In this document: positions 42,919 to 43,369 of the stretch, piece by piece | Numbering within the stretch: the stretch's first letter is position 1 | Layout of the letters: every line of letters begins with the position of its first letter | Source: a virus | DNA length: 43,537 bases | Reading direction: 5' to 3' (one strand) | IMG/VR virus record: IMGVR_UViG_3300032236_000648 | Coordinates: 1 to 43,537 of that record | Notes under the pieces: model-generated | Told to the model about the DNA's origin: nothing | Seen by the model: only the letters and a program-made list of their open reading frames with translations | Database searches by the model: none | Translations under genes and position numbers: made by a program

Positions 42919-42964
42919 TTGTAATGTCAGACCTATCATGTAGACTAACTACATAAGCAAACAA
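42919..42964 (+). promoter_or_regulatory. Promoter-leader cassette, copy 1
   Basis: TTGTAA (42919-42924), a 16-base spacer beginning TGTCAGACC, and TAGACT (42941-42946), then a conserved leader ACTAACTACATAAGCAAACAA ending at 42964. The leader differs from copy 2 at one base of 21. It drives the small Cys-pair gene at 42990. Confidence 0.65.
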
Positions 42965-42989
42965 GGAAAGAAAAGAAAGAGAGTCTGAA

Positions 42990-43130
42990 ATGTCCGTTTT
43001 AAGCCGTATCTCATGCGATTGTTGTGATCGCTCGTTCTCTGCCGCCGATTGGGATGGCGAGTACCTAGCCTCCATCGACGCTGCTATGTGCGCCGATTGC
43101 GTATACAACGCAGATAGCATGGGTGAGTGA
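42990..43130 (+). CDS. Very small Cys-x-x-Cys protein (46 aa)
   Basis: A 46-residue ORF from ATG 42990, preceded by a purine-rich AAGAAAGAGAG stretch and by promoter cassette 1. It contains two Cys pairs, SCDCCDRSF and AMCADCVYN, a typical minimal zinc-ribbon arrangement, and ends NADSMGE. Its codons are GC-rich like those of its neighbour. The opposite-strand ORF over the same region has no such support. Function is unknown; small zinc-binding proteins are common in phage early regions. Confidence 0.65.
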   Translation: MSVLSRISCDCCDRSFSAADWDGEYLASIDAAMCADCVYNADSMGE

Positions 43131-43131
43131 C

Positions 43132-43326
43132 ATGTCCTCTCTCAAATACAAGACTCAGCGGGTCGCTGCCCGTAACCTCCGCGTAGGCACTGTCTGCTAT
43201 CACGGAGGTGAGATCGTTTCGATCCAGCCCCGTCTAGGTACAGGTATCCTTGTGGGTTTCCTAGATGGTCACCAGACATTCTATGAATACCCCGAACGGG
43301 TGCGGATCTACCCCTACTTTTATTAG
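43132..43326 (+). CDS. Small beta-rich hypothetical protein
   Basis: A 64-residue protein from ATG 43132 with GGGTGAG just upstream; a GTG at 43123 would add three residues. It reads RVAARNLRVGTVCYHGGEIV then SIQPRLGTGILVGFLDGHQT and ends RVRIYPYFY, suggesting a compact all-beta SH3- or barrel-like fold. It overlaps the region of the 46-residue gene's stop. Its TAG lies inside the -35 box of promoter cassette 2. Family unknown. Confidence 0.65.
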   Translation: MSSLKYKTQRVAARNLRVGTVCYHGGEIVSIQPRLGTGILVGFLDGHQTFYEYPERVRIYPYFY

Positions 43327-43369
43327 ACTGTCAGACCCCCTCCGGTATACTAACTACACAAGCAAACAA
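43323..43369 (+). promoter_or_regulatory. Promoter-leader cassette, copy 2
   Basis: TTAGAC (43323-43328), a 17-base spacer beginning TGTCAGACC, and TATACT (43346-43351), then the leader ACTAACTACACAAGCAAACAA to 43369. It matches copy 1 in both the TGTCAGACC box and the leader. It precedes the gene at 43386. Confidence 0.65.

Follow-up and report, generated by a model that had tools for sequence, protein, structure and literature searches.

Phages are known to watch the SOS repressor system. For actinobacterial damage promoters that are independent of LexA and RecA, the consensus tTGTCRgtg, followed after 8 nt by TannnT, was described (PMC5656591), and the consensus of these RecA-NDp promoters was also given as TGTCGG/TGTCAG-N10-TA-N3-T (PMC8151990). 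PafBC binds RecA-NDp promoters together with sigma-A, PafB recognizing the -26 motif and PafC contacting domain 4 of sigma-A; the trigger of PafBC is single-stranded DNA bound to its WYL domains (PMC11804915). Another system of repeats, the start-associated sequences (SAS), consists of GGGATAGGAGCCC directly at gene starts (PMC3203893). A search of the open-access literature (open-licence papers only) found no description of PafBC promoters controlling phage genes; the promoter class is known, and dense viral arrays of such promoters appear to be unreported.

The window phage and its two cassettes

The DNA analyzed here (the window) comprises 43,537 bases and covers the IMG/VR record IMGVR_UViG_3300032236_000648 entirely. 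Its minus strand carries a structural arm encoding RNR, a LamG-domain protein, portal, protease, major capsid protein and others. The portal is ~54% and the major capsid protein 50-54% identical to those of Streptomyces phages of the Stanwilliamsviridae (Phredrick, Gilson, Karimac), a group with which the window phage shares portal and capsid homology as well as gene order; as in Phredrick, small leftward genes are followed by glycosyltransferase, RNR, portal, protease and capsid. Judged by its homologous portal and capsid genes and by gene order, the window phage is a putative member of the Stanwilliamsviridae. By blastn, the cassette region had no DNA match among named phages.

Several other genes of the window were observed. 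The interval from RNR to the portal region encodes an 823-aa protein (36015-38486, minus strand) that has a LamG/concanavalin-like domain; the Streptomyces relatives carry an endolysin and another protein at this position. Two proteins of 2429 and 1607 aa (1352-8641 and 10276-15099, minus strand) are both without Pfam family. Ahead of the cassettes lies a 91-aa HNH endonuclease-like ORF (42000-42275, plus strand; PHROG match, below the Pfam cut-off), and a sequence resembling it is found at the equivalent place in the related contigs L004 and L005.

At the right end of the window, cassette 1 reads TTGTAA-TGTCAGACCTATCATG-TAGACT-AACTACATAAGCAAACAAGG... from 42919 and cassette 2 reads TTAGAC-TGTCAGACCCCCTCCGG-TATACT-AACTACACAAGCAAACAAC... 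from 43323. Their parts, as assigned from the sequence and the published consensus, are the following.

42919..42924, plus strand: weak -35-like hexamer TTGTAA of cassette 1; a -35 consensus is absent in most family members
42925..42933, plus strand: -26-type element TGTCAGACC of cassette 1 with the core TGTCAG (consensus in PMC5656591, PMC8151990)
42941..42946, plus strand: -10 box TAGACT of cassette 1, 16 nt from TGTC
42944..42964, plus strand: 21-base repeat of cassette 1, comprising the end of the -10 box, the discriminator and the start of the leader
42975..42983, plus strand: Shine-Dalgarno-like GAAAGAGAG of cassette 1
42990..43130, plus strand: 46-aa ORF of cassette 1 with paired cysteines, no family above cut-off
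43132..43326, plus strand: second gene of cassette 1, a 64-aa ORF without a detected family
43323..43328, plus strand: weak -35-like hexamer TTAGAC of cassette 2, which overlaps the stop codon of the gene upstream
43329..43337, plus strand: -26-type element TGTCAGACC of cassette 2
43346..43351, plus strand: -10 box TATACT of cassette 2, 17 nt from TGTC (family norm + 1)
43349..43369, plus strand: 21-base repeat of cassette 2
43374..43379, plus strand: Shine-Dalgarno GAAAGG of cassette 2
43386..43537, plus strand: small ORF MNYIATNLGSIYVGVVG... of cassette 2, at least 50 aa, ending with the window

Transcription is predicted to start near 42953 in cassette 1 and near 43358 in cassette 2. The original prediction had described two cassettes, each ahead of small genes, that have TGTCAGACC in common and 21-base leaders differing at one position, and both statements held. 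In the window, TGTCAGACC occurs in exactly two copies (42925-42933 and 43329-43337), as does ACTAACTACA(T/C)AAGCAAAC (42944-42962 and 43349-43367), which together with 2 further bases makes up the 21 bases that differ once between the cassettes. Two matches to ACTAACTACA(T/C)AAGCAAAC were found in none of the shuffles of the window. The genes that follow encode 46 and 64 aa, and then at least 50 aa up to the end of the window. The ACT with which the 21-base repeat opens still belongs to the -10 box, which it terminates, and the transcribed part is therefore shorter than had been thought. With one mismatch allowed, the frequency of TGTCAGACC in the window was not above chance; the significance of the window repeats rests on their pairing and on related contigs, not on TGTCAGACC alone.

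RNA structure of the two window leaders was not beyond chance, and a generic sigma-70 scan of the cassette region detected no excess of TTGACA/TATAAT promoters. Immediately before cassette 1 (window 42880-42924), ~40 bases (GAGCAAACYTTGAGGAAAATGGTGCGCTTTYCCCCTTGTAA) are near-identical in four contigs, namely the window, L003, L004 and L005, a conservation that exceeds what a promoter requires. The stability of the hairpin GGAAAA...TTTTCC directly before cassette 1 was not above that of shuffles.

The promoter array in related loci

Two sets of loci were analyzed. With the window RNR as query, 79-80 loci were found (RNR-linked set), and 61 further loci were picked by the promoter pattern and hence counted separately (pattern set). 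In these 140 loci, ~620 distinct sites of the form TGTC(A/G)G-N10-TANNNT were detected. In the RNR-linked set, TGTCRG located upstream of RNR on the cassette strand was followed by TANNNT at 16 nt in 247 cases, as against 0-4 cases at each spacing of 12-15 and 17-19 nt; the opposite strand and the structural arm gave 3-5 sites at 16 nt. Smaller peaks at 11, 21 and 22 nt in this set probably arise from TA..T strings within the same promoters. The number of distinct sites at 16 nt was 218 in the RNR-linked and 431 in the pattern set, and 256 and 538 sites were observed in the two sets, where order-1 resampling of the sequence yielded about 20 and 11. At least three sites on one strand were present in 94/140 loci, with 757 sites on the major and 16 on the minor strand. 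The motif also emerged without preselection, TGTCAG being the dominant hexamer upstream of starts (212/526, 26.6 expected). That the repeats arose by chance or from a recent duplication without function is hardly conceivable: the window alone contains two 16-nt sites, one of them outside the cassettes, which is about the chance expectation, but significance rests on the relatives, where ~620 distinct sites share a single spacing in 140 loci.

A logo of 618 sites reads AA-TGTCAG-(TGG/ACC/TCC)-N4-TGN-TATAAT, then an A-rich leader of ~31 nt to the start codon, and 542/620 sites are followed by a Shine-Dalgarno sequence and a start codon. The TG of an extended -10 is frequent in it. No -35 consensus is seen in these 618 sites (at most ~0.12 bits at that place), while single weak -35-like hexamers exist. 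That the promoters are ordinary extended -10 promoters and the common leader acts by itself, e.g. as an unstructured ribosome-loading or mRNA-stabilising sequence, would agree with the frequent TG, the A-rich leaders and the poor folding of the window leaders. It is nevertheless very improbable, as it leaves TGTCRG at a fixed distance unexplained and the leader sequence is not conserved family-wide.

The suggestion that a repeated expression unit continues beyond the window was supported, as more cassettes were found in every related contig. Eight long relatives carry 9-17 sites on one strand, mostly within ~6-12 kb and nearly all in one block, and up to 17 cassettes in 13 kb were counted in relatives. 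The arrays are confined to one small-gene block and absent from the structural arm. This bears on whether the sites, within ordinary sigma-A promoters, could instead be repressor operators (phage stoperators) or be bound by a different host regulator, e.g. ClgR. In favor of this, TGTCAG is preceded in some cassettes by a weak -35-like hexamer, asymmetric repressor sites with a TGTCAA core are present in cluster A and CA phages (PMC10986025), and recognition of the same P1 promoter by ClgR has been reported (PMC5656591). However, the spacing to the -10 box is fixed to one base, a general -35 consensus is absent and the sites are restricted to the promoters of a single block instead of extending across the structural arm, which makes operators or ClgR sites quite unlikely.

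Five cultured relatives (Streptomyces phages and Rhodococcus phage Trina) lack the array and show motif counts at control level, as do phiC31 and a Pseudomonas phage. Unlike the Stanwilliamsviridae Streptomyces phages, the uncultured relatives have a low GC content (34-46%) and mosaic small-gene blocks. An origin of the array as a terminal repeat was discarded, as the direct terminal repeat of Phredrick is only 765 bp and the array lies internally in the contigs of long relatives. A 3.8-kb contig assigned to a Methylophilaceae MAG (L105, CAIPBJ010000120.1) has five cassettes and most likely represents a piece of actinophage DNA that was binned wrongly.

Cassette 1 of the window follows TGTC(A/G)G-N10-TANNNT, whereas cassette 2 has N11 and strictly falls outside the pattern. 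Its 17-nt spacing is shared by its two closest homologues and is at background elsewhere. Judged from this spacing, cassette 2 may be weak or dependent on the -35-like TTAGAC. The weak -35-like hexamers in some cassettes, including both of the window, may also permit activity independent of PafBC.

Shared leaders and the genes behind them

The leader of the window was also found in three more IMG/VR contigs, G001 (95 kb), G002 and G003, which have three to five cassettes in succession; the absence of further copies, named as a refutation of the original prediction, was not observed. When the leader and several longer cassette patterns were searched in viral contigs, the leader was detected in G001-G003 only, besides the window. 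Pattern matches in L019 and L020 turned out to be unrelated chance matches.

The common leader stands ahead of different genes, encoding MNYIATN... in the window, MIITLTH... in L003 and L004 and MQFIETS... in L005, while MQFIETS... in L004 sits behind a different leader. Likewise, the leader of window cassette 2 is 94-100% identical to leaders before unrelated proteins in L003, L004 and L005. Across the family, 62 cassette pairs have leaders at least 85% identical and unrelated proteins, although the contigs are related and these are not 62 independent events. Because one leader precedes different genes, promoter-leader blocks appear to be copied or exchanged as modules, and the near-identical leaders of the window would be due to the copying of such a module before different genes. 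Conservation of the transcribed leader, as originally claimed, stands for a small clade and not for the family, in which TGTCRG, an extended TATAAT -10 and the fixed spacing are conserved. The leader is a local trait, and the array of PafBC-like promoters is the main finding.

In a subset of cassettes, a hairpin directly follows the -10 box. It was present in ~44/535 leaders compared with 9.8 expected in shuffled leaders, and was seen in L028, L047, L057, L073, L078, L097 and others. The loop is often AGG, as in GTTAATCA-AGG-TGATTAAC and TTGAGAA-AGG-TTCTCAA, and pairing is kept across different stems. These AGG-loop hairpins could control translation or mRNA stability.

The products of the first genes behind the promoters are small (median 68 aa, 103 products). 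Among 54 first genes from 12 arrays, named families were DUF932 in six, DUF1281_C in three and GP88 in one. Small unannotated genes beside a structural arm would fit an early or takeover role, and the label 'early' that had been given to the cassette genes is plausible.

Probable control by host PafBC and comparison with known systems

The spacing within the array is identical to that of the published actinobacterial RecA-NDp consensus. We consider it probable that each cassette has a PafBC-type (RecA-NDp) promoter from which one or a few tiny phage genes are expressed. Such a promoter would consist of an extended -10 (TGNTATAAT-like) that is preceded at 16 nt by the -26 element TGTC(A/G)G, without a conserved -35. 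The PafBC heterodimer of the host would be activated by single-stranded DNA, e.g. from the replicating or damaged genome of phage or host, and would then bridge the -26 element and sigma-A at the cassette promoters, so that the array would be switched on once infection starts yielding single-stranded DNA. The promoter-leader block would be the module that is copied before different genes. Against this reading weigh the 17-nt spacing of window cassette 2 and its two closest homologues, the frequent ACC or TCC behind TGTCAG, the weak -35-like hexamers and the control-level counts in cultured relatives.

Comparable sites were searched in bacteria. In two Streptomyces chromosomes, 30 and 40 sites were counted, against 0 for the reversed pattern, and one of them precedes a gene resembling that of DNA polymerase III gamma/tau (identified by eye). 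In an actinobacterial MAG in which two WYL genes are neighbors, TGTCAG-N10-TAGCGT lies 65 bp before the recA domain. A scan of genome contigs for TGTCRGACCCCCCTGSTANNNT gave 9 matches, about the chance level, of which six were one conserved Streptomyces sequence and one a misbinned phage contig. Strict forms of the motif were nearly absent from samples of 396 and 149 genomes; both samples were drawn from one list, with recA loci of GC contents down to 28%, apparently not mainly actinobacterial, and were treated as uninformative.

Among 13 long phage contigs, which may be incomplete, no WYL protein was found, and 6/13 encode WhiB. For these two reasons the activator is probably that of the host, and host PafBC would be the simplest candidate binder. 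WhiB and the actinophage relatives support an actinobacterial host, as far as gene content indicates; low-GC freshwater Actinobacteria could be the hosts. It is unlikely that TGTCRG is instead the site of a phage-encoded activator or sigma-associated protein and only resembles the PafBC motif. Phage proteins are mostly unannotated, TGTCRG is denser in the phages than in hosts and the phage -10 boxes are nearer to consensus, all of which would suit such a protein; yet the host consensus in the literature has the same two half-sites at the same distance, such sites were counted in the two Streptomyces chromosomes and no WYL protein was found in the 13 long contigs.

With host PafBC as the activator, a broader picture is favored, if less firmly: a large group of uncultured actinophages would have placed a small-gene block under the ssDNA-sensing PafBC of its host, timing viral expression by the state of damage or replication without an activator of its own, and this control would have spread by copying of promoter and leader. 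If true, this offers a hypothesis for how a common environmental actinophage group activates small, probably host-takeover genes. It would also supply a sequence rule from which the promoters and start sites of uncultured phages can be predicted, and would explain why phage and host might compete for control over the host's response to DNA damage.

The SAS of cluster K mycobacteriophages are, as are the elements described here, repeated asymmetric sequences before many small genes, mainly in one orientation. They are however defined by GGGATAGGAGCCC at gene starts, while the common element of the phage array is the promoter; GGGATAGGAGCCC beside start codons occurs here at or below chance, and the likeness to SAS that had been suggested was not upheld. 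The stoperators of cluster A/CA actinophages resemble the phage sites in being asymmetric, in their TGTCA core and in their main use of one orientation (PMC10986025). Stoperators are repressor sites spread through the genome with no known fixed-distance link to a -10 box, whereas the array sites stand at a fixed 16 nt and are confined to one block. The PafBC-dependent promoters of Actinobacteria (RecA-NDp, recA P1) have TGTC(A/G)G, 10 nt and TANNNT as in the phage sites; both lack a -35 consensus, and a directional position close upstream of the transcription start, as in the host promoters, is predicted for the phage sites. Unlike host PafBC promoters, the phage sites are viral, form dense one-strand arrays before tiny genes, possess near-consensus extended -10 boxes and often carry ACC or TCC after TGTCAG, where the host consensus has GTG.
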